The translations under genes and the position numbers were made by a program. The notes below the pieces were generated by a model, which saw only the letters and a list, made by a program, of their open reading frames with translations, ran no database searches and was not told the origin of the DNA. From contig JAFECQ010000016.1 of assembly GCA_018242065.1 (NCBI GenBank), positions 1 through 64,000 on the forward strand: a stretch of 64,000 nucleotides of DNA. Direction: 5' to 3'. Source of the DNA: Pseudomonadota bacterium. Lineage in GTDB: Bacteria > Pseudomonadota > Alphaproteobacteria > UBA9655. Shown piece by piece: positions 1,736-55,341 of this stretch (within the stretch, counting starts at the first letter, position 1; each line of letters begins with the position of its first letter).

Positions 1736-2716
1736 GTGCCTTCAACACAGCTAGAACAAATGAAGCAAAGTCCGCAAAACTCTGCACACCCTGTAGCGAA
1801 TGGAGGGAGTTATTCTCCCCCTCCACCTATTCCAACGTTACCTATCCAAACTCAATATGCTCCTGGAGGTGGGCAACCAAAAGGGCTTATTGTTAATTTA
1901 GGTAAAGTATCCTTGTTTGGTATCTTTTTTAGTTTAATCATTATGGGCGCTCTGACTTTTTTAAGTGGCTTTTTACTTGGGGTTTGGTTTGCTGGGCCAA
2001 GCGGTTCAAATATAATTCCCACAAGCGACACATATAATCCAATATATCTTCACTCTCAAAGCCCTGAACAGCAAACTGCTCCTACGTCCGCCGCCGCTGT
2101 GGGAAGCCATGCTATCCAAAGTGCTGCCGGACAGGCAGGATTTGCAACACAATCTGTTGTTTCAAACGTTCACGTCCCTCATGTCCCATCTTTTTTAGCT
2201 CCCCTTGTTACAGCAACACAAACAGCTGTAGGAGAGCAACTCGGGCATAAAGCACAACAGCAAGTTAACCGTAATTTAGATCAAGGGTTACAAGTTTCTG
2301 CGCCTGCAGCCCCTCAACAAAAACCAACAACGCAAAACCCTCCTTTGACGCAGCCAGCCCCTTCAATGTATCCAGCAACTCCCCCACTTCCAGCAACCAC
2401 CACGCCATCATCCTCTTCACCCACGCAACAAAGCGCACCTAAGTCACAGTCTCAACAACAGAATTTTACAATTCAGCTTGGGGCATATGCATCAAAAGAG
2501 AATGCCCATGCTCTTGTAAACCATTTACAAGCACTCAATATTAACTCACGGACAATTGTGGGCAAGGGTGCAGAGGGAAACGTTGTGTATTTTGTTCACA
2601 GCGGACTTTATAAAGATTATAATCAAGCATTAGAGGCAGCTTCGCAATTTGCAAACCAAAATCTTCCAGGTGCAATGGTCGTGAATGTTTCTGAAGAAAA
2701 TAAGAGTGCCTCATGA
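1736..2716 (+). CDS. SPOR-domain inner-membrane protein heading the T6SS operon
   Basis: A 326-residue protein beginning at a GTG preceded by AAGGA. It has a short proline-rich cytoplasmic N-terminus (SYSPPPPIPTLP), one transmembrane segment around residues 58-87, a long Pro/Gln/Ala/Ser-rich linker, and a C-terminal SPOR domain (about 244-321, starting FTIQLGAYASKENA). SPOR domains bind denuded glycan strands in the periplasm. Its last four bases (ATGA) are the start of tssJ, so it is translationally coupled to the T6SS genes. The TssL of this operon lacks a peptidoglycan-binding extension, so this protein may anchor the complex to the wall; that is inference. Alternatively it is a division-type SPOR protein that drifted into the operon. 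Confidence 0.75.
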   Translation: MPSTQLEQMKQSPQNSAHPVANGGSYSPPPPIPTLPIQTQYAPGGGQPKGLIVNLGKVSLFGIFFSLIIMGALTFLSGFLLGVWFAGPSGSNIIPTSDTYNPIYLHSQSPEQQTAPTSAAAVGSHAIQSAAGQAGFATQSVVSNVHVPHVPSFLAPLVTATQTAVGEQLGHKAQQQVNRNLDQGLQVSAPAAPQQKPTTQNPPLTQPAPSMYPATPPLPATTTPSSSSPTQQSAPKSQSQQQNFTIQLGAYASKENAHALVNHLQALNINSRTIVGKGAEGNVVYFVHSGLYKDYNQALEAASQFANQNLPGAMVVNVSEENKSAS

Positions 2717-3495
2717 CACGCATAACAATGACATCTTGGATTCGACAAAAATTTTTAATCGGATTTTCTCTCTTTACCGCTATAGGGCTCACGTCTTGTA
2801 CAAATGATTTACTACCAGAACTTTATATTGATACTGTTTCAATTTATACAGAGTCTGATACTAATCAAAATTCTGCAATCGCTGTTGACCTCGTTCTTGT
2901 TTATGATCAAGAGCTCGCAAAGCTTTTGAGTCAAATGTCAGCTGCTAAATATTTTTCTTCTGCAAAACAACTTCTTTTAGACAACCCGACACTTTTAGAT
3001 ATTTGGCATTGGGAATTAGTTCCTGGCCAAATTGTACAAGATTTTTCTCCTCCACAGGAACAAGGAGACGCTTATGCAGGGTTTGTTTTCGCAAATTATC
3101 TCTCGCCCGGGGATCATCGTATTAAAATCGCCCCAACGGGAATCGTCAAAGTTCTTCTTTTAAAGAATGATTTGAAGAATCTAGCTAATTATGACCTTAA
3201 CGATGCCCGTCTAGGTACGACCATGTCAGATGTTATCAGAACAACCAGTGACACAGGGCCAGAAGACGAAGAAGAACCGTGTAAAATAAAGCTTGGGCCA
3301 ACAAAGAAGCTAATGGCTCCTTGCAAGAAAGTGACACGAGGAACGAAACAGCCTCCTCAGCAAGAGCCATGTGTGTTTTCTACGACTCAGCCTTGCTCAG
3401 CAAAACCAGTGCCTATTTTTACACGTCCACTGTGCCCTCCAGCTGCAATCGTAAGCAAGCCCAAAGGAAATAAGGTGAAAAAATGGCAAAACTAG
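2713..3495 (+). CDS. tssJ: T6SS outer-membrane lipoprotein TssJ-like, with C-terminal extension
   Basis: Residues 1-30 form a lipoprotein signal ending in LTSC, the expected anchor of TssJ, which caps the TssJLM membrane complex at the outer membrane. The following region fits the TssJ beta-sandwich: alternating hydrophobic strands (VDLVLVYDQELAKLL), a central DIWHWELVPGQ segment, and a late GDHRIKIAPTGIVKVLLL. Typical TssJ proteins have about 150-180 residues; this one has 260, the excess being a polar C-terminal tail with six cysteines and many prolines. It overlaps the SPOR gene by 4 bases and tssK by 13 bases. Family assignment rests on the lipobox, partial pattern and position between the SPOR gene and tssK. 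Confidence 0.75.
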   Translation: MTRITMTSWIRQKFLIGFSLFTAIGLTSCTNDLLPELYIDTVSIYTESDTNQNSAIAVDLVLVYDQELAKLLSQMSAAKYFSSAKQLLLDNPTLLDIWHWELVPGQIVQDFSPPQEQGDAYAGFVFANYLSPGDHRIKIAPTGIVKVLLLKNDLKNLANYDLNDARLGTTMSDVIRTTSDTGPEDEEEPCKIKLGPTKKLMAPCKKVTRGTKQPPQQEPCVFSTTQPCSAKPVPIFTRPLCPPAAIVSKPKGNKVKKWQN

Positions 3496-4832
3496 ATTTC
3501 AACCCCATACAATGGCACGAAGGCATGCTTCTTATGCCTCAGCATTTTCAACAAACTGATTTTCGCATAGAAAATATGATGGCTTACTACATGAGTCAAA
3601 TGTCTTCTTTTTTTTGGGGGATTGTAGACATTAAAATTGATGAAGCTCTTTTAACATCTGGCATTTATCGTCCTTTAGAACTTGAGGTTATTATGCCTGA
3701 TGGCCTCGTTATTTCTGGACTCCCCGAAACAACAACACCTTTGCAATTGAATCTGGTTCCTTTTCAAAAAGAACTTCAAAGTGAACCCTATTATATCTAT
3801 TTATGTATTCCTCCTTGGCGAGAAGGAGCCATGGAAGTGGGTGGTGATTTACCACGATATCTTTCTTCCTTAAGCACAAACGTTATGGATATGAATACAG
3901 GGGAACAACCTATTGACATTCCACGCCTTTTACCCAATCTCTCCTTACAGTTAGCTCTTGAGCCTCCTCCCCATTATGTCTCTCTTCCTCTTGCTCAAGT
4001 TATCTATGACGCAAAAAGCTTTTCTTTAACGAATTATCTCCCCCCTCGCTTGAAAGTAACTTTGGTATCGGGGATAGGTGAGATCTGCAATCAACTTTCA
4101 GAACGTCTACGTTTAAAACTAGGATATTTGCAACAAAAAGTTCAAACAGTACAAGAGCAAGTTACTAAGGATCCTTTTTTCGAAGAGATTGAAGATATTC
4201 GCTTAAAATTAATTGCCGGTCTTCTACCTTTTGAAGCATTAATATCTGTTCAAAACGTTCACCCTTTTCTTGTTTATCGCGAGTTATGCAGTCTTGCAGG
4301 ACAAATTTCGGGCGTAAAATATGGCGAACTTCCCCCTCGATTTGATGCTTATAATCACTTAGATATTAGCAAAAGCTTTTCTCAAGTTATTGATTATATT
4401 ACAAAAGTCTTGAACGAAATTGAAGAAAGCTACACAGTTATACCATTCTCCCTAAATGATCGCGTTTTCACTCTTCAACTCCAATCAGCTTGGGTCGGAG
4501 ATAGACTTGTCATTGGTGTTAGAGCTCAACCAAATACAACAACAGAGGACCTTTTAAGTTGGATTAATAACTGTGTTATTGTCACCGACAAGTATATTAC
4601 ACTTGCGAAAGACAACCGCGTCTTGGGGGCAAAGAGAACAATTGTATCAGAAGTCCCTGCAATGAATCTTGTTGCAACCAAAGGTGTTCAGCTTTTTGTT
4701 GTTGATGTTGATCCTCGCTATATTGATCCAAAGGGAATTTTGTGTTTATTTAACATTTCTGACGATGACTTAACTCGACCATTGGAAGTCGTACTTTACA
4801 ATTCAAATCAACAAGCATTGTCAAAGGATTAA
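3483..4832 (+). CDS. tssK: T6SS baseplate protein TssK
   Basis: TssK forms trimers that connect the baseplate wedges (TssEFG) to the cytoplasmic parts of TssL and TssM. The N-terminal signature WHEGMLLMPQHFQQTDFR is highly characteristic. Length (449 residues) is normal, and the C-terminal receptor-binding part contains the usual late VQLFVVD / YNS segments. The start overlaps tssJ by 13 bases, showing translational coupling. No wedge genes are nearby, so the rest of the baseplate must be encoded elsewhere. Confidence 0.92.
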   Translation: MAKLDFNPIQWHEGMLLMPQHFQQTDFRIENMMAYYMSQMSSFFWGIVDIKIDEALLTSGIYRPLELEVIMPDGLVISGLPETTTPLQLNLVPFQKELQSEPYYIYLCIPPWREGAMEVGGDLPRYLSSLSTNVMDMNTGEQPIDIPRLLPNLSLQLALEPPPHYVSLPLAQVIYDAKSFSLTNYLPPRLKVTLVSGIGEICNQLSERLRLKLGYLQQKVQTVQEQVTKDPFFEEIEDIRLKLIAGLLPFEALISVQNVHPFLVYRELCSLAGQISGVKYGELPPRFDAYNHLDISKSFSQVIDYITKVLNEIEESYTVIPFSLNDRVFTLQLQSAWVGDRLVIGVRAQPNTTTEDLLSWINNCVIVTDKYITLAKDNRVLGAKRTIVSEVPAMNLVATKGVQLFVVDVDPRYIDPKGILCLFNISDDDLTRPLEVVLYNSNQQALSKD

Positions 4833-4879: not shown

Positions 4880-5713
4880 TTGGATGCTTTAGGTACTGCT
4901 GAAAAAACAAGGGCCTCAAATAAAAAGAAAGTAAGATTCGTGGCACGATTTAACGATAGCAAACAAAGAACAACATTTATTGTTGAGTGTTTTGAAGAGT
5001 TCTATAAAGAAGTTTTAAAACATAAGAACTTTGTTCTCAATAAAAGAAAAATAAAAGGTGAAAAAGACTCCTCTCCTAATGCTACAGCCGAATTTATCTT
5101 GTCAAAATTACAAACGTTCCTGGAAAACCAGTCTTTGACCGCATCTTTGGGTGGGAGTAGCTTCGCCGAGACCTTTTATGCGGAAGCTCAATTTTTAATG
5201 GTTGCTCTTGCAGACGAAGTGTTTTTAAACCTTGATTGGCTAGGAAAACCTTACTGGGAATCTAATTTACTCGAACAACGTCTCTATGACACCCATAGCG
5301 CAGGACAAGTTTTTTTTGATAATCTTGATGTTCTTCTCAGAAATAAAGACCCTGTTCGAAAAGATCTAGCAGTTCTCTATCTAAACGCTTTGGGTTTGGG
5401 CTTTAAAGGTAAATATAGACATTTTAATGATGAGGGCGCTTTAAATTCTTATCGTTCAAAATTATTCACGTTTATCAATCGCAGAGAGCCTTATTTATTT
5501 CGACAAAAAATTCATCTTTTCCCTGATGCTTACGCACATACATTAGAAGCAAATGAAGCAAAGGAACTTCCTAATTTACGCAATTGGTTTCTCGTCTTTG
5601 CAGGAATTGGGTTCGGTTATCTTCTAGCTTCGTACATAGTGTGGTATTCTGCAACCGCAGAGATTTCACGCGTCGTTAACAGAATTATTGCCTATAGCGG
5701 TAGAAGTGAGTAG
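4880..5713 (+). CDS. tssL: T6SS inner-membrane protein TssL (DotU/IcmH family)
   Basis: DotU-family component of the membrane complex; its cytoplasmic domain binds TssK. Seen are FAETFYAEAQFLMVALADE (about residues 95-113), DEVFLNLDW, and GLGFKGKYR, followed by a single C-terminal transmembrane helix (about 236-257, FLVFAGIGFGYLLASYIVW). It ends shortly after, so there is no OmpA-like or other peptidoglycan-binding extension. The start must be the TTG at 4880: an in-frame TAG lies just upstream, the ATG at 4884 is out of frame, and there is no strong ribosome site. 47 bases separate it from tssK and 9 from tssM. Confidence 0.9.
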   Translation: MDALGTAEKTRASNKKKVRFVARFNDSKQRTTFIVECFEEFYKEVLKHKNFVLNKRKIKGEKDSSPNATAEFILSKLQTFLENQSLTASLGGSSFAETFYAEAQFLMVALADEVFLNLDWLGKPYWESNLLEQRLYDTHSAGQVFFDNLDVLLRNKDPVRKDLAVLYLNALGLGFKGKYRHFNDEGALNSYRSKLFTFINRREPYLFRQKIHLFPDAYAHTLEANEAKELPNLRNWFLVFAGIGFGYLLASYIVWYSATAEISRVVNRIIAYSGRSE

Positions 5714-5722: not shown

Positions 5723-8700
5723 ATGATAAGTGAACGCTTGACACGCCTGACTTATTACTTTCCATGGAGTCTTGTTGTTGCTCTATTGCTGGCTCTTATC
5801 TTTGCTGTTATAGGCATTATGATTTTTAGAAGTGCGATTAAAAAGGGAGAAGAAGATGGTTCATCACCCGAAAAGACCTCTCCTCTTTTAGATAAGCTTC
5901 AGATATTCGCCGCACGTTTTGGATATTTTGGAACAACCCCTCTCAGCCAATCATTTAACTATGCTCTCAAGCTCATGTATAACTTCATTGGTGGAACCCA
6001 ATTTCGTTATAAACTTCCATGGATTGTTATGCTTGGCACAAGCAACTCGGGGAAAAGTGCAGCACTTGAAGCTTTAAACTTAGATCGTCCCATTGGTCGC
6101 CCTCATTTTGATACCGAAGGCCTCTTAAAACCTCTTTGTGATTGGTGGTTTTATGATCACGGTACCGTTTTAGATCTAGATGGTAAAATTGTTTTGAGTC
6201 CTACGCGAGCCTCTTCTGATGAAGACAATTGGAAACTTTTTTTAAATCTTCTTGTTCACCATCGATCTAAACGACCTCTTGACGGAATTGTTTTAACAAT
6301 TCCTGCAACGGAGCTCATCGGGGATGGTATGCTTTCTCATGATGATCTCATGGTTCGCGCAGAATACCTCTATGGCAAATTATGGCAGGTACAATATTTA
6401 ACTGGCATTAGAGTGCCTATTTATGTCGTCGTGACAAAGTGTGATACGATTCCTGGCTTTCACAGTCTCTGTAATTCTCTGCCAAATCACAGCCGACACG
6501 ATATTTTTGGTTGGTCTAATGATCGTGCTGTTGATTCATCCTATACGAGCGAATGGATTGATGAAGCTTTTGCCTCAATAAATGCCTCACTCTATCGAAT
6601 TCAAGAGGAAATTTATGCTGATGGGAAGACCATTGATGGCCGGGACGGCGTCTTTTTATTCCCGGTCATGTTTAATCAAATAAAAGGAGGGCTTAAAACA
6701 TATGCAAACCACCTTTTTAAAGCTTCCGGCTACCACGAAGCATTCTTTTTAAGAGGACTCTATTTCGTCGGGGATAGCCACGTTGAAAAACCCGGCCGCG
6801 TACGGCAGGTTGCTTCTGATCTTTCATTAAGCTATATGCACGATGATGCGTCTCGCACTCGAAATATCTATTTTATTGATAATCTTTTCGAAAATAAAAT
6901 CTTTCGTGAAGTAGGCTTAGCAAGGCCTGTTTCTCGTGTACTATTAGGTAATACGACAGCGATGCGTTTTGCTAAAATTGGAGTTGCCATAGCTGCAATC
7001 GTTGGAACACTTAGTTTATTACGCGCCAATGAAGTGTTACAAAGCGCAAAAATGAATCTAGTCCCTGCGCTGACTCAAATCGAAGTCACATTAGAGAAAA
7101 TTCACGGCCAAAATGAAGAGACCGAAATTGGGCGCGTTTTCTTTGAAGATCAAGCTCAAGCTCTTCTTAATATGATGACGCAAATTAGTGTAAATACCCT
7201 CTCTTCAGTTTTTATCCCTCCTTCCTGGTTTGATAATTTGGATGCAAAAATTAAATTCGTTATGGGAATCGCTTATGAACGCGTTGTCATTCGATCTCTT
7301 GCCAGTCAGTTAACATATAAAGCTATTCAACTTTTTTCATTGGACACGGTTATCCCAGTAACAGAAGCCACCAGCAATGGAATCGATCCTCTCGAAACGG
7401 CTCAATTTTATCGCTTTAGAAACTACGTTCTTGCTGTACGTGCGCTTGAGTTGGCGGCAAACAAATACAATGACCTAGGTATGACTTCGAGCTTAAAAGA
7501 TGTCTCAGAAATTATAAAATACCTATTTAATTATGATTTACCTGCTGACTTTTATGAACATACAAATTTTTATGTTGATGCACTCAAAGAAACGAATACG
7601 AAATTATTTGATTTTGACGGATTCCGTGATGATGCTTCAATCAAATTACGTAAGCTTTTTGATGAATTTCAACTTGCGAGCTTTGATCCAAACCAAATGA
7701 TTCCGGGGCTTGGCCGTTTAATGACAAGTCTCTATGAATTTTCAGGGGCGCGCAACTATACAGCTTATGATGCGGATCTGCTGCGCGAAATATATGTAAG
7801 CTTAGGCGAAACAATCGGCTCAATTAAAAATCCTGGTTTAGAATGGTTAGATGCGGATCATTTTAATCCTGGCCCCCAATATGAATATGTTGTGGGACTT
7901 ATCGTTGGCTCCGCCTTTTTTACAAGTACAACCGCAAGCGATTTAATCAGTGAACTGGATCAAAATTTTACGGCGTTCCGTAGACGTCTGGCTGGCTATA
8001 CCTCGCCTCTTATTAATGGCGGAAATCTCTTTAATGTTGAAAATGATTTGGCCATTGCGGCTCCTTCAGAAGGAGCTCTTGCTTTGGAACAGAACTTATC
8101 AGTTTTCTTTGCTGAGCCATTTATGGCTGCCACAGAAAGTAGAAATATTATCACAGCAATTCCTATAGGCTCTGTATTATTATGGGATACTCTACGTCTA
8201 CAACAAGCAGTTCAATTGATTAGTAGTTATAATAATTTTATGAACTCTCATCTTTTGAACATGCCAAAAGTTCTACAGCCAATGCTTCAAAAAGTGGGAA
8301 GAGATAATCTAACACTAAACCTTGTTCGGTTTATCGTTGATGCTGAAGTCTTTAGCTCAGAAACCTTGATAGGTGTAAGCACATCTCCAGAAGATGCTCT
8401 TCTCTCTCAAGTTCAAAATTATCGAGCTGCGGCGCCTTACCTAGAACAGATTTTATTTGCCTTAAAAGCAAATAATGCAAACTCCGCTTTCAGTACTCTC
8501 AAAGACCTTTTAACTGGACAAACCTATAATCCTTTAGCAAAGCTTGACGAAATTTTAACAGATGAATCTCCTTACGCGATTAAAATGAATTCTTTTGATT
8601 GGTGGAAGGGTGATTCTTTAGCAGCTCTTGAAGCCTTTGGCGTTTCTACCCTTACAGAACTAAAAGGTTACCTCGAGTTACAACGCGACCGAATCAATTA

Positions 8701-9904
8701 TTTAGCACGCGAGTTTGCTGATCCCCTTGTTTCCTTTCTTGAGCAAGTAAATAAAGAAGGAATGCCAGGGAATTTCCCACTTGCCACGAAATGGTCGGGC
8801 ATTACAAGCGCACTCAACGGATATAGTCGAAAAGAACCAGGTAATGCTCTCCTTGAACTGGAAAATTACATCATGAACCCCCTCAATGAAGTAACGCTTG
8901 CAACGTGTTTAAAATATGCGAGTACGGTGAATCCTCTTTCAGCAAATCAAGACTTTTTTGTTAATATTTTAATCAACCTCCAAGAAAAACTGCACGATCG
9001 TTGTGTAGATCTATCCGGTTATGTATCAGCGGATAATTATTCTGATTTGGCACAATTCTTTAACGCTAATTTAGCTGGAAAATTCCCATTTTCAGATGCA
9101 CAGAATATCTCTGCTCCAGATGCAAACCCAGAAGATATTCGCACCTTATTTGATATGATTGACACTCAATCTAATAATATTAAAGCCACTCTAAAGCAGG
9201 CAACAAATTTAGGACCTGCTGGTAAAAGTGCCCTCACTTTCATTACTCAACTTGAAAAGGTTCGTTCTTTCTTTGGCGACTATTTAGCGCCGAACTCAAC
9301 ATTACCTTCGCCTGCTTTCACCTTTGATGTAACGTTTAGGGTTAACCAAAGCAGAGAAGTTCGAGCCAATGAAATACTAGATTGGGAACTAACAACTCAA
9401 AACACAACCTTAAACATGCGCTCTACATCTCCTTTAGGCTATTGGAGGGAAGGTGATCCTATCAAGATGACTTTCCGTTGGGCTCTTAACAGCCCTCTTC
9501 AACCACAAATGATAAATGATATGTCCAATTTTGATGTACAGGGAGAAAATGCTTCTTTTGCATATGAAGGCACATGGGCACTCCTTCGCCTCTTGAGACA
9601 ACATCAAGCAAAACCATCAGATTTTGACTCTTTAAATGATGAGACCCCCATTACATTACGTTTTGATATTCCTTTAACAAACGTTGTATCAAATTCTCAA
9701 GTATCATCTCAAGATGAAGAGAAAAATGCGATCGTTTTCGTTCGCCTAAAAGTCTCTCCTTTACAAATGGCCTCACCTAAGCAAACGACAAGCGCCGCAC
9801 CTAAAGGAGAAATATCACCAAAACAAGCCATTCGTATGGGAACACCCGTTTCCTTACCTTATTTTCCTTATTCCGCACCACGTCTTAATAACCCAGGGAA
9901 TTGA
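5723..9904 (+). CDS. tssM: T6SS inner-membrane protein TssM (IcmF family)
   Basis: The large scaffold of the TssJLM trans-envelope complex, 1393 residues. A transmembrane segment lies near residues 15-36 and another near 416-434; between them is the cytoplasmic NTPase-like domain with an intact Walker A motif (GTSNSGKS, 105-112) and a TKCD motif (238-241) in the position of the GTPase NKxD box. The long periplasmic part that follows ends in the IcmF C-terminal region, which binds TssJ. An AGGGAAG ribosome site precedes the ATG. It is 9 bases after tssL and 3 bases before tssA. No frameshift is visible over 4.2 kb, so the gene is under selection. Confidence 0.95.
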   Translation: MISERLTRLTYYFPWSLVVALLLALIFAVIGIMIFRSAIKKGEEDGSSPEKTSPLLDKLQIFAARFGYFGTTPLSQSFNYALKLMYNFIGGTQFRYKLPWIVMLGTSNSGKSAALEALNLDRPIGRPHFDTEGLLKPLCDWWFYDHGTVLDLDGKIVLSPTRASSDEDNWKLFLNLLVHHRSKRPLDGIVLTIPATELIGDGMLSHDDLMVRAEYLYGKLWQVQYLTGIRVPIYVVVTKCDTIPGFHSLCNSLPNHSRHDIFGWSNDRAVDSSYTSEWIDEAFASINASLYRIQEEIYADGKTIDGRDGVFLFPVMFNQIKGGLKTYANHLFKASGYHEAFFLRGLYFVGDSHVEKPGRVRQVASDLSLSYMHDDASRTRNIYFIDNLFENKIFREVGLARPVSRVLLGNTTAMRFAKIGVAIAAIVGTLSLLRANEVLQSAKMNLVPALTQIEVTLEKIHGQNEETEIGRVFFEDQAQALLNMMTQISVNTLSSVFIPPSWFDNLDAKIKFVMGIAYERVVIRSLASQLTYKAIQLFSLDTVIPVTEATSNGIDPLETAQFYRFRNYVLAVRALELAANKYNDLGMTSSLKDVSEIIKYLFNYDLPADFYEHTNFYVDALKETNTKLFDFDGFRDDASIKLRKLFDEFQLASFDPNQMIPGLGRLMTSLYEFSGARNYTAYDADLLREIYVSLGETIGSIKNPGLEWLDADHFNPGPQYEYVVGLIVGSAFFTSTTASDLISELDQNFTAFRRRLAGYTSPLINGGNLFNVENDLAIAAPSEGALALEQNLSVFFAEPFMAATESRNIITAIPIGSVLLWDTLRLQQAVQLISSYNNFMNSHLLNMPKVLQPMLQKVGRDNLTLNLVRFIVDAEVFSSETLIGVSTSPEDALLSQVQNYRAAAPYLEQILFALKANNANSAFSTLKDLLTGQTYNPLAKLDEILTDESPYAIKMNSFDWWKGDSLAALEAFGVSTLTELKGYLELQRDRINYLAREFADPLVSFLEQVNKEGMPGNFPLATKWSGITSALNGYSRKEPGNALLELENYIMNPLNEVTLATCLKYASTVNPLSANQDFFVNILINLQEKLHDRCVDLSGYVSADNYSDLAQFFNANLAGKFPFSDAQNISAPDANPEDIRTLFDMIDTQSNNIKATLKQATNLGPAGKSALTFITQLEKVRSFFGDYLAPNSTLPSPAFTFDVTFRVNQSREVRANEILDWELTTQNTTLNMRSTSPLGYWREGDPIKMTFRWALNSPLQPQMINDMSNFDVQGENASFAYEGTWALLRLLRQHQAKPSDFDSLNDETPITLRFDIPLTNVVSNSQVSSQDEEKNAIVFVRLKVSPLQMASPKQTTSAAPKGEISPKQAIRMGTPVSLPYFPYSAPRLNNPGN

Positions 9905-9907: not shown

Positions 9908-10975
9908 ATGGCAAAAAACACCCCTTTGGACTCTAATCTCTCTCTCTTCTTAGATCCCATCGCAGGCAAAAAGTCATGTGGAGAGTCTCTTCGGTATGCG
10001 GACGTCTATGATCAAATACGTGAAGCACGAAGAGAGGAAGATGACAAACTTCCCCAAGGCGTTTGGAAGACAGAAATCAAAAAAGCAGACTGGGAGCTCG
10101 TCAATCGAATTTGTCAGGAGGCCCTTAAAAATCGTTCGAAAGATCTTCAAATCGCCGCCTGGCTTACTGAAGCATGGCTTCATTTGGAAGGTATAAGTGG
10201 GCTCGCTCACGGGCTTGAACTAATCTTAGAACTCACTCGAAAGTACTGGAATGAAATCCATCCTGAAATCGAAAAAAATGGTTTTGAGCTGCGTGTTGTT
10301 CCGTATGAGTGGATTAATACGCGACTGAGCGAGGAAATACCGAGCATTCTTATAAGTATGCCTTCGGACCGTTCAGCCCTCCCCTACAGCTTTTTAAATT
10401 ACAGTGATGCGAATCGCCATGAAATTTCGCTCAAAAGAAATCCTTCACATACGACTAAAGAAGAGAAAACACTTTCACCTGCCAAAGTGTCGCTTAGCAT
10501 TGATCAAACACCTACTGCTTTTTATCGTCATATAGATGAAAGTTGTAGGCTTGCTTTAAAAATCATGACTGAACTCGAGGATGCCCTTCGGCTGCATATA
10601 GGTGCAGATGCACCAGCTTTCTATCGTCTTCGGGAAAAGGTAGATGCAATACAGCGCTTTGCCCATCATATTCTAGATGAGCGTGGCGAAAAGCAGGACC
10701 TCAAAAAATCTGTTCCTGAGGATACGTCTTCTGTACAACCGAAACGCAAAACAACTTCTGGCCCCATTGAAAGTCGCGAACAAGCTTATGCTCTTTTAGG
10801 AGAAGTTGCAGTTTATTTGGAACGTGCTGAACCACACAGCCCAACTCCATATCTTATTCACAGAGCCATTGCATGGGGTGGGATGAGTCTTTCTGAAGTT
10901 GTTTCAGATACCCTCCATAGCGGCCGTGATATGTCTCTTTTATTGGATATCTTGAACGTCAAAAAAGAACAGTAA
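9908..10975 (+). CDS. tssA: T6SS protein TssA (ImpA family)
   Basis: TssA guides baseplate docking and sheath/tube polymerisation. The N-terminal ImpA_N domain is clear: DPIAGKKSCGESLRY, then KKADWELVNRICQEAL, and LQIAAWLTEAWLHLEGISG. The C-terminal part has the conserved block ESREQAYALLGEVAVYLER followed by HSPTPYLIHRAIAWG. At 355 residues it belongs to the shorter class of TssA. It is the last intact gene of the operon, 3 bases after tssM. The TAA stop is followed in the same frame by a long open vapC-like segment. Confidence 0.9.
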   Translation: MAKNTPLDSNLSLFLDPIAGKKSCGESLRYADVYDQIREARREEDDKLPQGVWKTEIKKADWELVNRICQEALKNRSKDLQIAAWLTEAWLHLEGISGLAHGLELILELTRKYWNEIHPEIEKNGFELRVVPYEWINTRLSEEIPSILISMPSDRSALPYSFLNYSDANRHEISLKRNPSHTTKEEKTLSPAKVSLSIDQTPTAFYRHIDESCRLALKIMTELEDALRLHIGADAPAFYRLREKVDAIQRFAHHILDERGEKQDLKKSVPEDTSSVQPKRKTTSGPIESREQAYALLGEVAVYLERAEPHSPTPYLIHRAIAWGGMSLSEVVSDTLHSGRDMSLLLDILNVKKEQ

Positions 10976-16147: not shown

Positions 16148-17821
16148 CTAATCCCAATCATCCCCATTATCATCTTCAGTCTCTTTCTTAGAACGCAGGG
16201 CTTCTGCCTTTTTTAAGAATGCAGACATAGAGTCAGCGGTTGAAGAAGATGCTGCTGCAGAAGCAGGTGATTCGACGGTAGAAATTCTTTTTGAAGAAGG
16301 AGGCGACTTTTTTAGTTGCACTCTTGCAAGCTGTTCTGCCTGTGGGGGAAACTCTCCTACTTCATCAGATACCGAACTGGCCAAAACCTTCCTGTGAGCC
16401 TCTGCAATTCGTTGAGCTTTTTCTATACTTCTTTGGGCCTCTTCTACGGCCTCTCTCTCTTGTTGAATCTTTTGCTGTTCCAACCTTTCTATTTCAAAGC
16501 GTAAGCTAATCAACCGGTCTTTTTCATCTTTTACTGCCTGCCTAGCGTTCAATATTCTTGTTGATTCTGCCTTAATTGCTCTGGAGAATCCTGATGGAAT
16601 ACGTTTTTCAGCAGTTTCCTTCAATGCCTGTATGTTTAAGTTAATGTTTTCAACCTCCTGTCTTTTTTCATCAATTATCTCATCAAATGTTTTAACTTTT
16701 GGGGCTACTTCACTCGCCATAAATGGGGAAGATGAAGGAGGAGGAGCAGGCAAATCCTTATCTTCCGACTCATATGTATCATCATCAGAAACGTCCCTAT
16801 TAATAAGCTTAAGTCTCTCTTGAAGCAGCTCAAACGCATCCTTACTCATTCCCGCAGTTGCAGAATCCCGTTTAGATAAAGACGAACGAGGAGGAGGAGA
16901 CCATTTTTGTTCCTTCTCTGCTAAAGATTGTTCCTTCTTTGCTGAAGATTTTCTTTTCTCTTTAAAAGAAGGATCAAAAGGAGGAGGAGGCGGCGGAATA
17001 GGAATAGCAGAAGCAGCTTTTTCACTTTCACTTACCCTTGAGTGTGGTTTTGGAGCTCTCGGAGGAGGTATTGGCTTCCCAGTAATCTTAGAAACAACCC
17101 ACCGTTTAGTGTCAGAATCTACTGTATCCCATCCTGGATACGCATTGCTCGTCATAAGAAAAGTCACGATCTCTGTATCAGAAACATGTGGGAGGTCTGC
17201 CTTCGTTGACCTAAAAGCTCCTGAATAATCTTGTTTGCTTAGAAAATTCTCTAAGTCTTTTCTCTTCGCTGCTTTTGCGATTTTAGAAACAACCCATCCT
17301 TTTGTGCCAGAATCTACTGTATCCCATCCCGGATATTTATTACTTGTCATAAGAAAATTCACGATCTCTTCATCAGAAACATGTGGAACAGCCGTCTTCG
17401 TTGCACTAAAAGCTCCTGAATAATCTTGTTGGCTTAGAAAACTCTCTAAATCTTTTCTTTTCGCTTCCTTTGTAATTTTAGAAACAACCCATCCTTTTGT
17501 GTTAGGATCTACTGTATCCCATCCCGGATATTTATTACTTGCCATAAGAAAATTCACGATCTCTTCATCAGAAACATGTGGAACAGCCGTCTTCGTTGCA
17601 CTAAAAGCTCCTGAATAATCTTGCTTGCTTAGGAATTCCTTTAAACCACTTCTCCTTACTCCTACTTCAGCAGTCTCTTGTTCCTCAGAGGCTTCTTTTT
17701 TTACTTTTGACCCCTGACGAACAACACGTCCTACATGTTCATCTTGCATAGCCGAACCAGGCGTTCCAAAGAATGCAACGCTGGAGAGTAAAGTCAACAA
17801 ACCAATAACACTTAATCTCAT
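16148..17821 (-). CDS. exported protein with three 65-residue QDYS repeats
   Basis: Family not recognised. A signal peptide (LSVIGLLTLLSSVAFF, cleavage near GSA) is followed by three tandem 65-residue repeats from about residue 60 to 250. Each runs L..FLSKQDYSGAF, then PHVSDEEIVNFLM.SN.YPGWDTVD, then GWVVSKI. The first two are nearly identical, showing recent duplication. The rest is low-complexity: proline clusters (PIPPPPPPFD), Lys/Ser/Glu-rich segments and a predicted coiled coil around residues 375-475. The frame extends to a GTG at 17827, but the ATG at 17821 is the more likely start. The same repeat occurs in the genes at 34406 and 43367. Likely periplasmic, surface or secreted; the role is unknown. 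Confidence 0.75.
   Translation of the reverse strand: MRLSVIGLLTLLSSVAFFGTPGSAMQDEHVGRVVRQGSKVKKEASEEQETAEVGVRRSGLKEFLSKQDYSGAFSATKTAVPHVSDEEIVNFLMASNKYPGWDTVDPNTKGWVVSKITKEAKRKDLESFLSQQDYSGAFSATKTAVPHVSDEEIVNFLMTSNKYPGWDTVDSGTKGWVVSKIAKAAKRKDLENFLSKQDYSGAFRSTKADLPHVSDTEIVTFLMTSNAYPGWDTVDSDTKRWVVSKITGKPIPPPRAPKPHSRVSESEKAASAIPIPPPPPPFDPSFKEKRKSSAKKEQSLAEKEQKWSPPPRSSLSKRDSATAGMSKDAFELLQERLKLINRDVSDDDTYESEDKDLPAPPPSSSPFMASEVAPKVKTFDEIIDEKRQEVENINLNIQALKETAEKRIPSGFSRAIKAESTRILNARQAVKDEKDRLISLRFEIERLEQQKIQQEREAVEEAQRSIEKAQRIAEAHRKVLASSVSDEVGEFPPQAEQLARVQLKKSPPSSKRISTVESPASAAASSSTADSMSAFLKKAEALRSKKETEDDNGDDWD
17075..17644 (-). repeat. three tandem 195-bp coding repeats
   Basis: Direct repeats of 195 bases (65 codons) within the exported protein gene. 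Units 1 and 2 are almost identical at the DNA level and unit 3 has diverged. Because the unit is an exact multiple of three, copy number can change without frameshift. Confidence 0.85.
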
Positions 17822-17913
17822 AACCACAATACCCTAACAAAAATAACAACCACATATATATTATAATTTATTATACATCAACAAAGAATAAATATCAAAT
17901 TTAATTTTTATCT

Positions 17914-28641: not shown

Positions 28642-30399
28642 ATGGTGACAGGAATGAATTTTTTCCATACCTTCAGAGATGAAATTTTAAAAACCCTACA
28701 AATTCTTGTAAAAGAAGGCTCTCTACCAGAGGGACTCGACTTTGACAAAATAACAACAGAGCCTCCTCGCGACCCTTCCCATGGAGATTTAGCAACAAAT
28801 GCTGCCATGGTCTTAGCAAAACCCGCGAAAAAAAATCCTCGAGATTTGGGCCAACTGATCGCGAAAGAACTTGAAACACTTTCTTTTGTAGAAGAAGTGT
28901 CAGTCGCTGGGCCTGGGTTTATTAATCTCAAACTATCATCTGACTTTTGGTACCAAGAACTGAAAACTATTTTAAAAGAAAAAGAAGAGTACGGTGCTTC
29001 ATCCATTGGATTAGGCAAAAAAATCAACCTTGAATACGTCTCAGCAAACCCTACGGGACCTATTCACGCTGGACATGGGCGGGTGGCCGTCGTTGCAGAT
29101 GTTCTTGCCAATCTCTTGGAAAAGGTTGGTTATCGCGTCTTACGTGAATATTATGTTAATGATGCAGGAGGCCAAGCCGAAAAGCTAGCGAAATCAACCT
29201 ATTTACGCTATCGCGAAGCTTTAGGAGAAAAAATCTCCCACATCCCAGAAGGCTTTTATCCAGGAGATTACTTAAAAGAAGTTGGGCAAGCTCTAGCTGA
29301 CCGCGATGGAACTCTTTGGCTAAGCATACCCGAAAAAGAGTGGTTAGAACCGTTCCGGGAATTCGCGGTTAATGCTATGATGACTAAAATTCGTAAGAAT
29401 TTGGCTTTGATGGGCATTACTCATGAAGTCTTTACGTCTGAAACCGAGCTCCATCGAAGTGGCGCTATTGAGGAGGTAATCAGCACATTAACCGATTATG
29501 GCCTTATCTATGAGGGCATCCTCGAACGCCCTAAAGGAAAAGTGATCGAAGATTGGGAACCACGTGTCCAACTCCTCTTTCGCTCCACCCTCTTTGGAGA
29601 TGATACGGATAGAGCCCTTCAGAAAGCTGATGGCTCGTGGACTTATTTTGCAGGCGACATAGCCTATCATTATGACAAGTTCCGTCGCGGATACTCGCAT
29701 ATGATTAATGTCTGGGGGGCAGACCATGTCGGTACTGTCAAAAGAGTGACATCAGCTGTAAAAGCAATAACCCAAGAGAAGGGACACCTTGATGTCATTC
29801 TTTGCCAAATCGTAAATTTCTTGGAAGGGGGAAAACCCCTCAAAATGTCAAAGCGAGCTGGAACTTTTGTTGAAGTCCACGATGTTATTGAAAAAGTAGG
29901 AAAAGATGCTTTTCGCTTTATGATGATTAGCCGAAAAAGCGATGCTCATCTCGATTTTGATTTTCAAAAAGTTCTTGAGCAAACAAGGGATAACCCTGTC
30001 TTCTATATTCAATATGCACATGCTCGCTGTCACTCAGTTATGCGAATGGCTCATGACGTCTTTCCAGGATGGAATCAAACTCCACCGCATAATTTTGAAG
30101 ATCTTCAAGATCCAGATGAGCTCCATCTTCTAAAACTTTTAGCTTCTTGGCCCCGTCAAGTAGAAATTGCTGCTGTCGCTCAAGAACCTCATCGTTTATG
30201 TTATTACCTCTATGACGTTGCCCAGCAATTTCATATGCTGTGGAATAAGGGAAAGGATAATACTCTTTTGCGATTTATCGTTGTTCAAAATCGTGATCTT
30301 ACACAAGCACGATTAGCTATGATTCAAGGCGTGGCCCATGTCATTGCTTCTGGTTTTCAAGTCATCGGAATCACCCCTGTTCAGGAGATGAGAGAATGA
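28642..30399 (+). CDS. argS: arginyl-tRNA synthetase
   Basis: Charges tRNA-Arg in the cytoplasm. Class I signatures: the HIGH-like motif HAGH in NPTGPIHAGHGRVAV and KMSK in GGKPLKMSKRAGTFVEV. Additional family blocks are YYVNDAGGQAEKLAKS and the C-terminal DALR anticodon-binding domain (YYLYDVAQQFHMLWN). 585 residues. The start at 28642 lacks a clear ribosome site; a second ATG four codons later (28654) is an alternative. It overlaps the next gene by 4 bases (ATGA), beginning an operon of at least three genes. Confidence 0.95.
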   Translation: MVTGMNFFHTFRDEILKTLQILVKEGSLPEGLDFDKITTEPPRDPSHGDLATNAAMVLAKPAKKNPRDLGQLIAKELETLSFVEEVSVAGPGFINLKLSSDFWYQELKTILKEKEEYGASSIGLGKKINLEYVSANPTGPIHAGHGRVAVVADVLANLLEKVGYRVLREYYVNDAGGQAEKLAKSTYLRYREALGEKISHIPEGFYPGDYLKEVGQALADRDGTLWLSIPEKEWLEPFREFAVNAMMTKIRKNLALMGITHEVFTSETELHRSGAIEEVISTLTDYGLIYEGILERPKGKVIEDWEPRVQLLFRSTLFGDDTDRALQKADGSWTYFAGDIAYHYDKFRRGYSHMINVWGADHVGTVKRVTSAVKAITQEKGHLDVILCQIVNFLEGGKPLKMSKRAGTFVEVHDVIEKVGKDAFRFMMISRKSDAHLDFDFQKVLEQTRDNPVFYIQYAHARCHSVMRMAHDVFPGWNQTPPHNFEDLQDPDELHLLKLLASWPRQVEIAAVAQEPHRLCYYLYDVAQQFHMLWNKGKDNTLLRFIVVQNRDLTQARLAMIQGVAHVIASGFQVIGITPVQEMRE

Positions 30400-31199
30400 C
30401 ATTCACACCCAATGATGACGATCGTTTATGGAAAGAAGAAGAAGACAAAGGATGGTTTCGTTTCCCTTCCCCATTGAGGTATATCATTCTGCTTCTTATC
30501 ATTATCTGTGTTGTCGCAGGTATATGGTACGCTCTTTCTCCTGATCGCCGTAGTTTTAATAGCTCTACGCTTTCTCTTATCCAAGCGGATGAGACACCTT
30601 ATAAAACAAAACCTCAAGATCAGGAGGTACCAGGTATTAAACATCAAGATAAGCTCGTCTATGGACGAATTCGGAATGATCAAAATACGCCCACGGTTGA
30701 GCACATTCTACCTGACCCTGAACCTCCTATTGTTCTCGCCAAAGAAGAAGAAACAGCTGTTAAAATGGTCGACCAATACGTGCCTGAGGATATTCAACTC
30801 GATCCCGTATCAGACACAGCCTCCGAGGCACCAAAAGCCTCCATTTCCGCAATCACGTCGATTGAAGACTTGATTGAAGGTCAACCGGCAGAAGATTCAA
30901 AAGTAACAGCAGAACCTCAGAAAACACCTAAGCCGGAGAAAAAAGTTAGTCACAACCCTATTTTTATTCAATTGGGATCACTTAAAAGTTACGAGCTTGC
31001 TCAATCAGAATGGACACGAATTACGGGGAAACACAAAGACATCTTAGGAAATCATGAGCCCCTTATTCAAAAGGTTGATCTGGGGGTAGATAAAGGAATT
31101 TATTATCGTTTGCGTATAGGTCAAGACGATATAGAACGCGCACAGAAGACCTGTACAGATTTAAAAGAAAGAAAGGTGGATTGCCTTGTTATTTATTAA
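30396..31199 (+). CDS. SPOR-domain membrane protein
   Basis: 267 residues. One transmembrane segment near residues 27-46 (RYIILLLIIICVVAGIWYAL), an acidic, proline-rich periplasmic linker, and a C-terminal SPOR domain (about 188-267, FIQLGSLKSYELAQSEW through RLRIGQ). SPOR proteins bind division-site glycans denuded of stem peptides. The position between argS and nagZ is usual for alphaproteobacteria. It overlaps argS by 4 bases and nagZ by 14. It is unrelated in sequence, outside the SPOR domain, to the one heading the T6SS operon. Confidence 0.85.
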   Translation: MTFTPNDDDRLWKEEEDKGWFRFPSPLRYIILLLIIICVVAGIWYALSPDRRSFNSSTLSLIQADETPYKTKPQDQEVPGIKHQDKLVYGRIRNDQNTPTVEHILPDPEPPIVLAKEEETAVKMVDQYVPEDIQLDPVSDTASEAPKASISAITSIEDLIEGQPAEDSKVTAEPQKTPKPEKKVSHNPIFIQLGSLKSYELAQSEWTRITGKHKDILGNHEPLIQKVDLGVDKGIYYRLRIGQDDIERAQKTCTDLKERKVDCLVIY

Positions 31200-34405: not shown

Positions 34406-36832
34406 TCATATCCTAGGAAAGGACGTTTCCAAACCATCTTCTACAATAGAGAAATACTCCTCTTTGGGAAAGTCAAGTTTGATTGATCCTTTCATAAAAG
34501 AGACAAAATCATTACGAGCATTCTCTCCTAACCTATCCCAATCTTTATATCCCATTTTCTCGAGAGCGTGCTTTACAATTTCCGTATCCGAAACCGACGC
34601 TTTCTGAATCTTCATGTCGCGATAGGTTTTCCAAAGATCTAAATCGTTAAATACTTGCAAAGCATACAAACAATTAAATTTCTTTATTGAATTTTTAATT
34701 ATATTTTGATTTCTATAAGATAAATTATCCCAATTTTTATATCCATTACTCTCGAGAAGGAATTTAACAATTTCTTTATCAGAAGCTGCGTTTTTTTTAT
34801 TGCTTCTTATGGACTGAAAGGCACTTGAATAATCCTGTGTGCTTAGGAGTTTTCGTATTTCTCTCAAGTATACTGCATTTGTAATTTGTTCAACAACCGA
34901 CTCACGCTGCCTTGCGTTTAGTCGATTCCATCTTACAAAGCCATTACTCTCGAGAAGGAATTTGACAATCTCTTCATTAGAAGCTGTATTTTTTTTGTCG
35001 TTTCTTATGGACTGAAAGGCACTTGAATAATCCTGTGCGCTTAGGAATTCCCGAGAGTATCTTAGCTCTGCTTCACCTGTGATTTTATCATAAATCCATT
35101 TACGCTTGCTAAAGCCGAGCCGTTTCCATCTCTTATAGCCATTGCTCTCGAGAAGGAATTTGATAATCTCTTCATTAGAGGCTGAAATTTGTGAGGATAG
35201 CGATATATAAGCTCCTATATAATCCTGCTTGCTTAGAAATTCTCTTAAATATTCATCATCAGCTTTGTTTGTAATTGTACCAATGATCCATATTTTACCG
35301 TCATAAGATAACTGATCCCAATTTTTATATCCATTACTCGTAAGAAGAAATTTTACAATTTCACTATCAGAAGCTAGATTTTCTGTATTCGCAATTGCAC
35401 TAAAGGCTTTCGAATAATTCTGCTGACTTATAAGATTACGTAATACGTTTAACTCAGTTTCTTCTTCTCTTTTTTGTTTTTTAATCTCTTTTGGAGCCAT
35501 TTTAAACAAGGAATCTGAAAGAGCAACTTTCGCAAGATCAAGCCAACAATTCCAAAATTTTTCGTATCCCAATTGGATGACATGCTGTTTTTCCCGTGCC
35601 GAAAGATCGACCCATTTCTCTTTTTGTAAAAAGAAATCGTTCAGAATAAATTCCTCATCTCTACCAAATTCTCTGTACCTACGTTCCATATCAACAAGCA
35701 TGTGCTTGCTTGCGTTCGTAAATAATTCTTGCTTCTTTGACGCATTTCTCCATTTAACTTTCTCTATCATAGCTAATTTAATGGCATTTATTATTTTGTC
35801 GATGGATTTTAACGTCCTGGTTTTTTCCGAAGTTAGAGGGCTTTCGTGTATCAGGATATACAAACCATGCTCAATAATTTTTCTTTTATTTTCTTTCTCA
35901 TCATATTTTTTATAAAAAGAAAAAATTTTTCTCATTTTTTTCATTAGGGCCTTATCGTTACAAACTTGGCCATCTACTATTATGTGAGTAAAATCATGGG
36001 TTAAAAAATTGCGAGTGCCACTAACGGAAGACCAATGAGGATCTTTTTTTGATCTTTTCTTTTTATCTTCCTTTTGCAAAACATCAAATACAGCTAAATA
36101 GCCTTCATACTTTGGATTGAAGAACTCCCATACAAAGCGACGGGGCATCAAATGGCGCTTCTGACCAGGTTTGGGAGACAGATATATGATAGAAACGATG
36201 GGGAGGTTAATTTTGTCGAAGACGCTGAACCATTTGAGAGCCTCGGGTACAATTTTTTTTCTTATCTCACTATCAAAAACATCATAATAATTTTTACTAA
36301 AATGATTATTTTCACCTCCTTTATAAAAACTTAAAAGATCTGATAAAATATAATTAAATTGACAAAAATCATATGTATCAATCATTCCTGTTGGAAAACC
36401 TTTGTTTAAAGACATCCACAAATTTTTAAGAAGACGAAGGGAATACTGTTTTTTATGTTCATTTATAAATCCCTTCATGGGGACTTTTATATCACCAGCA
36501 ATAGAATCATGAACTAAAGCAAAGCCATTTTTTAAAATACTATAAAGTCCTTCAATAGGTTGAGTCTTGAGTTTTTCAACATCACCACCGTATTTACTGA
36601 AAGCCTTATCATAAATTTTACGATAATTCATAATTTGGGCGGGAAGAGGAAGGTGCGTATATTTAGAGGGAAGTTTAGGCTCAACTTTTTCGTCAGATGA
36701 AATGGCTATTTTCTTAATAAGCGTCCTCTTATTATCCTTCTCTTCCACTGCTTGCACTGCAAAAGAGAAAGATAACAAAATCATTGCGCTACTTATTAAC
36801 ATCTTTAATTTAATAAATATGCTCACAACCAC
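34406..36832 (-). CDS. large exported protein with five QDYS repeats
   Basis: 808 residues, no known family. A signal peptide (LISSAMILLSFSFAVQA) is followed by a unique region of about 430 residues, rich in Lys and aromatics, containing NFLTHDFTHIIVDG, i.e. an HDxxH pattern. From residue 464 to about 782 come five tandem repeats of about 65 residues related to those of the genes at 16148 and 43367 (LREFLSKQDYIGAY, EEIIKFLLESNGYKRW, W/I..KIT); units 3 and 4 are close copies and unit 5 is divergent. The start is a GTG at 36832; the ATG at 36802 is an alternative. It is the only minus-strand gene between tatB and tatC. Likely exported; role unknown. Confidence 0.7.
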   Translation of the reverse strand: MVVSIFIKLKMLISSAMILLSFSFAVQAVEEKDNKRTLIKKIAISSDEKVEPKLPSKYTHLPLPAQIMNYRKIYDKAFSKYGGDVEKLKTQPIEGLYSILKNGFALVHDSIAGDIKVPMKGFINEHKKQYSLRLLKNLWMSLNKGFPTGMIDTYDFCQFNYILSDLLSFYKGGENNHFSKNYYDVFDSEIRKKIVPEALKWFSVFDKINLPIVSIIYLSPKPGQKRHLMPRRFVWEFFNPKYEGYLAVFDVLQKEDKKKRSKKDPHWSSVSGTRNFLTHDFTHIIVDGQVCNDKALMKKMRKIFSFYKKYDEKENKRKIIEHGLYILIHESPLTSEKTRTLKSIDKIINAIKLAMIEKVKWRNASKKQELFTNASKHMLVDMERRYREFGRDEEFILNDFFLQKEKWVDLSAREKQHVIQLGYEKFWNCWLDLAKVALSDSLFKMAPKEIKKQKREEETELNVLRNLISQQNYSKAFSAIANTENLASDSEIVKFLLTSNGYKNWDQLSYDGKIWIIGTITNKADDEYLREFLSKQDYIGAYISLSSQISASNEEIIKFLLESNGYKRWKRLGFSKRKWIYDKITGEAELRYSREFLSAQDYSSAFQSIRNDKKNTASNEEIVKFLLESNGFVRWNRLNARQRESVVEQITNAVYLREIRKLLSTQDYSSAFQSIRSNKKNAASDKEIVKFLLESNGYKNWDNLSYRNQNIIKNSIKKFNCLYALQVFNDLDLWKTYRDMKIQKASVSDTEIVKHALEKMGYKDWDRLGENARNDFVSFMKGSIKLDFPKEEYFSIVEDGLETSFPRI
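34488..35443 (-). repeat. five tandem ~195-bp coding repeats
   Basis: Units encode about 64-66 residues. The segments near 34742-34853 and 34940-35045 are nearly identical in DNA sequence (for example GGACTGAAAGGCACTTGAAT in both), indicating recent duplication within the gene. Confidence 0.8.
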
Positions 36833-37794: not shown

Positions 37795-39052
37795 AAACCC
37801 AGAAGCCTTTGATAAAGCTTTAAAAAATCGTGGACTTGAAAGCGTATCAGCCCAAGTCATCGCTCTGGACGAAAGACGCCGGGCGGGCATTCAAGCTGTT
37901 CAAGATATGCAAAGTCGTCGCAACGGCCTTGCAAAGCAGATTGGCGAAGTTAAATCTAAGGGGGGAGATGCTGAAGCCCTGATGGAAGAAGCGAGTCTCT
38001 TGCGACAAAAACTTCCTGAAGCTGAGGAAGAGCTTCGTAATCTAGAAGAAGACTTAAAAAAAATTCTGGATTTTCTACCCAATGTTCCCGCAGCAGAGGT
38101 TCCCATTGGAACAAGCGAAAATGATAATAAAGAAGTCCACCGTTGGGGCGAAAAGCCAAATTTTTCTTTTACACCGAAACAACATTTTGAAATTGGCGAA
38201 ACACTTAAGCTTATGAATTTCGAGGAGTCAGCAAGAATCTCTGGCTCTCGATTTGTCATTCTTAAAGGAGATCTCGCACGCTTAGAACGTGCTCTTGGAT
38301 CATTTATGCTTGATGTACATACACAAGAGTACGGCTATGAAGAAATCTCTCCTCCTTATCTTGTGCGTACGCAAGCCATGTATGGAGCAGGTCAATTACC
38401 CAAATTTGCGGAAGATGCCTTTGTAACTACAAACGAATACTGGTTAATCCCCACGGCCGAAGTCCCTCTCACCAATTTAGTCGCGGACAGTCTTTTAGAT
38501 TACGAGCAACTGCCCAAGCGCTTTGTTGCCTATACACCTTGTTTCCGCTCAGAAGCGGGTTCAGCAGGGAAAGACACGCGGGGGATGTTTCGCCAACATC
38601 AATTCCATAAGGTCGAATTGGTGAGCATCGTCATCCCTGAAGCTGCTGAGGCTGAACATCAACGTATGCTAGGCGCGGCTCAATCTATTCTTGAGCGCTT
38701 GAAAATTCATTATCGAACCGTTATTTTATGTACGGGTGATATGGGTACGTGTCCTCAAAAAACCTACGATATTGAAGTTTGGCTTCCGGGCCAGAATGCC
38801 TACCGTGAGATTTCAAGCTGTTCTAACTTTGGCGATTATCAAGCACGACGCATGCAAACCCGCTTTCGCGATGAAGGGAAAAAAACGCGTTTTGTCCATA
38901 CATTAAATGGCTCAGGTCTTGCTGTTGGGCGTACACTTATTGCTATTTTAGAAAATTATCAACAAGAGGATGGATCTGTCATCATCCCTGATGTATTAAG
39001 ACCCTATATGAGAGGAGAATCTCATATTAAAGTTCAAAAGGTGACGGTATGA
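37769..39052 (+). CDS. serS: seryl-tRNA synthetase
   Basis: Charges tRNA-Ser. An N-terminal long coiled-coil arm (about residues 35-105) that binds the tRNA long variable arm is followed by the class II catalytic core with motif 2 ([20 protein letters not shown]) and motif 3 ([20 protein letters not shown]). 427 residues. The start is a GTG ([15 protein letters not shown]) inside the end of tatC. The tatC-serS-M23 order is typical of alphaproteobacteria. It overlaps the next gene by 4 bases. Confidence 0.95.
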
Positions 39053-54707: not shown

Positions 54708-55341
54708 AGAGTTCGACTCCTTCAAAAGGGACATAGCCTAAATAAGGTATATTTTTTAAATAATATTTTAGAGTCGTGATATTTTCATGAGCACAGGCCA
54801 TATATGGATCTATGTGGTTGATAACCCATCCCTTTATAGGTATTTGATGGGCTTTAAGAACAGCTATGCTTAATAAAGCATGATTAAGACACCCCAATTT
54901 TAACCCAATGACAAAGACAACTGGAAAATTTAAAGCCTTCATCAAATCGAGTTGAAGCTCCTCCTTATTCAAGGGCACCATAAGCCCTCCAACGCCTTCA
55001 ACAATCATACGATTATGCGTTATTTGAGAAATTTTTTGAATATGGCTACAAATTTCTTGAACAGTAAGTTTTACTCGTTCCTTTTCCGCTACAATGTGAG
55101 GAGAAACAGGGGGAATGAAACAATAGGGATTAACTTGTTCATAAGTTAGGCGAATGGATGCCGTATGCTGTAATAAGTGTGCATCTCGATTTATATAGTG
55201 TTTATCAATCCCCTCACATCCTGAAGAAATTGGTTTTAATCCAATTGTTTTAAATCCTCGGCTATTCCAATTTTTCAACATGAGGCACGATATGTACGTT
55301 TTCCCTATGTCTGTATCAGTTCCTGTTATAAAAACTTTCAT
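54685..55341 (-). CDS. bioD: dethiobiotin synthetase
   Basis: ATP-dependent ring closure of diaminopelargonic acid to dethiobiotin. P-loop ITGTDTDIGKTY at the N-terminus, the substrate region GLKPISSG, and VEGVGGLMVPLN are typical. 218 residues. Last gene of the bioB-F-H-C-D operon; it overlaps bioC by 26 bases. Confidence 0.92.
   Translation of the reverse strand: MKVFITGTDTDIGKTYISCLMLKNWNSRGFKTIGLKPISSGCEGIDKHYINRDAHLLQHTASIRLTYEQVNPYCFIPPVSPHIVAEKERVKLTVQEICSHIQKISQITHNRMIVEGVGGLMVPLNKEELQLDLMKALNFPVVFVIGLKLGCLNHALLSIAVLKAHQIPIKGWVINHIDPYMACAHENITTLKYYLKNIPYLGYVPFEGVELFKDNVSP

Follow-up and report, generated by a model that had tools for sequence, protein, structure and literature searches.

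Organization of the T6SS locus

The stretch of DNA analysed here, called the window in the following, comprises 64,000 bp of contig JAFECQ010000016.1 from an alphaproteobacterium and harbors a T6SS operon in which a gene for a SPOR-domain protein is followed by tssJ-K-L-M-A. The following features were assigned, one of them being a SPOR gene outside the T6SS for contrast.

1736–2716 (+): SPOR protein gene, GTG start, 326 aa (Pfam PF05036)
2453–2698 (+): region coding for the SPOR domain (alignment; profile match to FtsN 1uta, DamX 2lfv, and RlpA 6i05)
2713–2716 (+): ATGA stop-start overlap of the SPOR gene and tssJ (sequence)
2713–3495 (+): tssJ, putative outer-membrane lipoprotein, 260 aa (TssJ/SciN fold, lipobox)
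3483–4832 (+): tssK, adaptor of baseplate and membrane complex (TIGR03353, E 3.4e-63, over cut-off; PF05936)
4880–5713 (+): tssL, short form without peptidoglycan-binding extension (PF09850 DotU, E 9.4e-24)
5723–9904 (+): tssM/IcmF, 1393 aa (PF14331, E 1.3e-47; TIGR03348, E 2.2e-59, below the NCBIfam cut-off)
9908–10975 (+): tssA (TIGR03363, E 6.7e-81, over cut-off)
30396–31199 (+): FtsN-like SPOR gene outside the T6SS, between argS and nagZ (PF05036, E 3.1e-6)

The SPOR gene is oriented divergently from tpiA, and its GTG start is preceded by a good ribosome-binding sequence (aagaagga). As the initial annotation had claimed, its stop codon overlaps the start of tssJ in an ATGA at 2713–2716, and ORF coordinates revealed the same 4-bp overlap in 11 same-genus relatives. 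The claim that TssL carries no peptidoglycan-binding extension was likewise confirmed, as the protein matched the DotU family alone in Pfam and an OmpA extension was absent. A fusion of SPOR to TssL at this locus was rejected on the same grounds, both being encoded by separate ORFs. Elsewhere, the genome carries intact tssB-C-hcp-like-tssE and tssF-G genes. The gene between tssC and tssE (L010 10327–11043, G000:C33), at the place expected for Hcp, encodes a protein with a Gly-rich tail and no Pfam match.

Outside the operon, a short degenerate partial copy of tpiA was noticed by eye (window c. 165–235 compared to 1085–1150). Three signal-peptide-like proteins (16148–17827, minus strand; 34406–36832, minus strand; 43367–44704, plus strand) consist of tandem modules of about 60–65 residues with the pattern FLSKQDYSxAF...SDEEIVxFLLxSNxYKxWDxL, and a biotin block (birA-like, bioD, bioC, bioH-like, bioF, bioB, bioA) occupies 53718–60302.

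Identification of TssJ

Since the product of 2713–3495 revealed no Pfam, NCBIfam, or PDB sequence match to a TssJ, it was identified via fold comparison. An AlphaFold model built from 46 homologues, with a confident core, gave 6ixh_A, 3rx9 SciN, 4a1r, and 3zhn TssJ1 as best structural matches in Foldseek (best E 8e-5, probability 1.00), and the lipobox Cys29 was invariant in the 46 homologues. By its modelled fold the protein is a TssJ, the missing profile match showing divergence and not exclusion. Its tail after about residue 160 (window 3200–3492; genus relatives L066–L078) is Cys/Pro-rich, very variable in length, and fast evolving (dN/dS 0.4–0.65), and is absent outside the window's family in nearly all rows.

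A TssK tree grouped the window with Caedimonas, Paracaedibacter, Odyssella, and Finniella, so that the earlier placement in the Holosporales is plausible. The TssJ is thus identified in a lineage whose T6SSs are said in a 2025 review to apparently lack TssD and TssJ genes (PMC11909080); a TssJ-like gene has been noted in Bodocaedibacter (PMC8163844).

Domain architecture and selection in the SPOR protein

The deduced protein consists of a cytosolic Pro/Gln-rich tail (residues 1–56), a transmembrane (TM) helix (c. 57–85), a periplasmic Pro/Gln/Ser-rich linker with a predicted helix (152–183), and the SPOR domain (242–318). The initial annotation of the first operon gene product, a protein with one membrane span and SPOR at its C-terminus, held for ORF 1736–2716: PF05036 matched residues 242–316 (E 1.4e-9, 38.6 bits versus a cut-off of 21), and a single TM stretch was found, modelled as a helix by AlphaFold. 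Since positive residues flank this helix on its N side only, its orientation is predicted to be N-in. The SPOR domain was modelled with high pLDDT in a beta-alpha-beta-beta-alpha-beta fold (residues 243–318), for which Foldseek detected matches to CwlC, SPOR-glycan structures of RlpA, and DedD (1x60, 6i09, and 6i05 with probability 1.00).

Comparison of five same-genus pairs revealed dN/dS values of 0–0.15 for the TM region, 0.13–0.27 for the SPOR domain, and 0.36–0.54 for the linker. The SPOR fold is under purifying selection, and the TM helix is the best conserved and most constrained part of the protein. An F..G[FY] motif within the helix was present in 21 of 31 T6SS SPOR proteins versus 2 of 317 other membrane-type ORFs at the same loci. 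In addition, a short cytosolic P.P.[FY][LF] motif recurs in five otherwise dissimilar tails and may be another contact. We take the helix as the putative docking part and the SPOR domain as the putative wall-facing head.

Conservation of the SPOR-tssJ pair

Among 190 relatives searched, tssK was present in 42 alphaproteobacterial genomes. SPOR gene and tssJ were adjacent in 23 of these 42 genomes from eight families. All 15 tssK-positive members of the window's family are among them; the remaining eight (G028, G120, G055, G100, G137, G032, G163, and G149) belong to seven other families. The SPOR domains of G032, G163, and G149 are weak matches, near or below the Pfam cut-off, and their calls rest also on position and architecture. 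For the GC-rich Azospirillum loci, a six-frame profile search was used. Named genomes with the pair comprise Azospirillum brasilense and relatives, Arenibaculum, Caenispirillum, Pacificispira, Marivibrio, Hyphomicrobiales bacterium UR115, and a Caedimonas MAG; in one Acidobacteriota MAG the SPOR gene is located one ORF further upstream. Mapped onto a 115-row TssK tree, the SPOR label required 7 changes versus a mean of 35.7 after shuffling, a value reached by none of 500 shuffles. Even in G149, where tssJ is not located with the tssK operon, it is directly preceded by the SPOR gene.

The linkage is not universal. No SPOR gene adjoins tssK in Paracaedibacter, Odyssella, and Finniella, which are Holosporales with a related T6SS, or is linked in a second Azospirillum clade, and the linkage is absent from most Desulfobacterota, Nitrospinota, and Acidobacteriota relatives. 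The arrangement also occurs outside the Holosporales. The gene preceding tssJ in G021 and G126 retains tail and TM helix, including the F..G[FY] motif, without the SPOR domain. Based on these two relatives and the related T6SSs without a linked SPOR gene, some lineages can do without the SPOR domain. Two further genomes (G009 and G016) kept VipB/TssC and had no detectable TssK, TssJ, or SPOR partner; since the whole operon is missing or unassembled there, this co-loss cannot separate SPOR from the other operon genes. OmpA-fused TssL was detected at five loci, all in one separate TssK clade and none of them a SPOR locus, and no SPOR-TssL fusion was seen in the genomes searched.

Some loci showed further peculiarities. 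Two SPOR genes precede tssJ in Azospirillum (A. brasilense and relatives, in tandem), Arenibaculum, Caenispirillum, and Hyphomicrobiales UR115 (L088, L135–L140, L142, L145–L147, L149, L150, L160, and L175). In the SPOR-less Azospirillum clade, a gene for a helix-turn-helix protein lies directly before tssJ in the two loci read (L085 and L093). The MAG records L107 (titled Mesoflavibacter sp.) and L172 (Bordetella parapertussis) look mislabelled; the T6SS genes of L107 are nearly those of Rhodospirillales.

Other wall-related genes in the genome

The genome carries three SPOR genes over cut-off, namely the T6SS-linked gene, the FtsN-like gene, and an RlpA gene adjoining a gene for a D-Ala-D-Ala carboxypeptidase. 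Alphaproteobacterial FtsN-like genes are found in an argS-nagZ neighbourhood, which is where the FtsN-like gene of the window lies. With these two located elsewhere, 1736–2716 is a third, T6SS-specific SPOR gene. That a division-type SPOR gene came to lie upstream of the T6SS operon by chance is hardly credible: a weak NCBIfam ftsN match (E 1.2e-6) would fit this explanation, but its score of 28.4 bits is far from the cut-off of 107.65, an FtsN-like gene exists at 30396–31199, the TM motif is family-specific, and the linkage is conserved in eight families and within Azospirillum, which contradicts a chance neighbour. A misplaced FtsN was rejected as well, as the ftsN equivalog cut-off was not reached and the argS-nagZ place holds another SPOR gene.

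Three OmpA-domain proteins are encoded, a Pal, a MotB-like membrane protein, and a lipoprotein. All three were located, and none of their genes adjoins the T6SS genes. Thus, with SPOR linked to tssJ in relatives and no TagL-like gene linked to the T6SS, neither of the two findings that would have spoken against the initial annotation was made. The MotB-like protein (C27, L007), an OmpA protein of the inner membrane with its gene away from the T6SS, might act as an anchor as well.

Glycan contacts and amidases

The SPOR domains studied so far bind peptide-free glycan; the contacting residues of RlpA have been named, and most contacts are made by the main chain, independent of residue identity (PMC6895207). 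In our alignment, the Gln of the motif FTIQLGAY in beta-1 of the window protein occupies the position of FtsN Q251 and RlpA Q270. It is kept in nearly all aligned members of the window's genus, with Arg in G008, and is Glu in Azospirillum. Of the RlpA basic patch compared (R302, R309, and R311), the R309 position (FtsN R285) is Phe or Tyr in the window's genus, and the R311 position, as deduced from the alignment, would be His (Gln in a few), versus Arg in many other T6SS SPOR domains. A nearby Lys could substitute for the lost basic residues.

These changes (His at G-2, Phe or Tyr at G-4, and Glu for Gln in Azospirillum) would fit a SPOR fold that serves a protein-protein contact with TssJ or TssM and has lost wall binding, as would the loss of the domain in G021 and G126 while the membrane part stays. 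Since the published glycan contacts are mostly main-chain (PMC6895207) and the Gln is so widely retained in the genus, we regard this explanation as rather improbable.

Amidases of the Amidase_3 class (AmiA/B/C-type) normally make denuded glycan. No Amidase_3 gene was found in any of 12 genomes tested, i.e., the window genome and 11 SPOR-carrying small-genome relatives (window family, f13, f85, f17, and f134), whereas all three SPOR-carrying genomes of free-living size tested possess one. The window genome encodes one secreted Amidase_2 (L208). The other genus members have one Amidase_2 only and revealed no counterpart of the secreted enzyme; the genus-wide Amidase_2 showed no signal peptide in the two sequences read. 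A LytM-type gene in the window (39049–40236), whose LysM-M23 product has a degenerate active site (NDGIN replacing HxGxD) as in amidase activators, is kept despite the missing Amidase_3 gene in the window genome and its close relatives.

These data bear on the suggestion that the protein couples to the T6SS membrane complex and directs it to denuded glycan. The coupling is supported by synteny, the ATGA overlap, and co-migration with tssJ; the targeting is unproven and was weakened. A SPOR domain that reads denuded glycan as a cue for T6SS assembly at septa or growing poles would agree with the glycan preference of studied SPOR domains, the retained Gln, and the secreted Amidase_2, and the alphaproteobacterial SPOR protein RgsS uses denuded glycan as a polar landmark (PMC7822825). 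Speaking against it are the altered basic-patch positions, the lack of Amidase_3 in the window genome and all tested small-genome relatives with SPOR, though not in those of free-living size, and the failure to find the secreted Amidase_2 in other members of the genus, so that we consider such a cue unlikely. Based on the changed basic contacts and the missing Amidase_3, plain wall anchoring is better supported than division-site targeting, both roles being predictions.

The SPOR protein might also recruit or position a lytic transglycosylase or amidase for the passage of TssJ-TssM during assembly. This would fit the pairing with tssJ, since the complex of TssJ has to pass through the wall, the occurrence of SPOR proteins in wall-cleaving pathways, and the need for local wall cleavage in T6SS assembly (PMC8253398). 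Among the genes of the window operon, however, none was recognised as encoding a hydrolase, and such a helper function appears very doubtful to us.

Proposed role as a wall anchor

In our assessment, 1736–2716 rather likely encodes an accessory subunit dedicated to the T6SS membrane complex, comparable to TagL with SPOR replacing OmpA. In the inner membrane, its TM helix would dock on TssL/TssM, the linker would span the periplasm, and the SPOR domain would hold glycan strands of the peptidoglycan beside the TssJ-TssM channel, so that the complex could stay put during sheath contraction. We favour this anchor because of the SPOR-tssJ synteny, the pairing with tssJ in G149, the TM-helix homology, and the dN/dS values; moreover, OmpA-fused TssL never occurs in SPOR loci, no T6SS-linked OmpA protein is present in the genome, and the other T6SS genes (tssB, C, E, F, and G) are intact. 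Counting against it are the alteration of two of three RlpA arginine positions in the window's genus and the Glu for the key Gln in Azospirillum, as well as the Holosporales and the Azospirillum clade that have a related T6SS and no linked SPOR gene, the two relatives with the membrane part alone, and the MotB-like OmpA protein as another possible anchor. It is also conceivable, though unlikely, that the protein detects opened or remodelled wall and thereby limits construction of the machines to sites that can be crossed, with SPOR as an optional wall-reading head on an ancestral helix module.

Altogether, the SPOR protein probably represents an undescribed component by which the T6SS is attached to the cell wall in this alphaproteobacterium and many of its relatives, and we found no account of wall attachment of this T6SS lineage in the literature. 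T6SSs are thought to need wall anchoring, and the best-known anchors are OmpA-type domains gripping peptide stems. A SPOR anchor, if true, would grip the sugar chain, possibly of remodelled wall only, and would tie weapon assembly to the state of the wall. As the gene pair is present in A. brasilense, the question is testable in a culturable plant-growth-promoting bacterium, whose T6SS is reported to act on both E. coli and A. tumefaciens as targets (PMC11837500).

Comparison with known systems

Reviews of wall-binding T6SS proteins name TagL, TagP, TagN, TagW, and evolved TssL and do not list a SPOR protein that stands alone (PMC10433429, PMC8253398). Full-text literature searches likewise revealed none, and older work on wall anchors or the A. 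brasilense T6SS may mention one. The general statement in the initial annotation that other T6SSs attach through OmpA-like domains was incomplete, since 14 TssL-SPOR fusions (DotU group 3) were reported in silico in 2012 (PMC3326028). In these fusions, too, SPOR serves the T6SS membrane complex; there it is part of the TssL chain, whereas here the domain has a protein and a TM helix to itself.

The closest counterpart is TagL (SciZ) of enteroaggregative E. coli, likewise an accessory inner-membrane protein of a T6SS cluster with a C-terminal wall-binding domain and a short TssL. While TagL spans the membrane three times and carries an OmpA/Pal/MotB domain, for which diaminopimelate is the presumed ligand (PMC8253398), the window protein has one TM segment and SPOR, reveals no PF00691 (OmpA/Pal/MotB) match in Pfam, and is encoded directly upstream of tssJ. 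TagV of Serratia marcescens is also an accessory protein encoded beside tssJ and a proposed peptidoglycan binder; unlike the window protein, it is an outer-membrane lipoprotein with an SH3b domain, for which no interaction with TssL or TssM was detected (PMC7614798). FtsN and the alphaproteobacterial FtsN-like RgsS share the layout of cytosolic tail, one TM helix, low-complexity linker, and C-terminal SPOR domain, but are products of cell-division genes, and the FtsN-like gene of the window genome is a different one, located at argS-nagZ. Finally, a SPOR-like domain in a secretion machine is found in LspD of the Legionella T2SS, where it lies within the outer-membrane secretin itself (PMC9239104).
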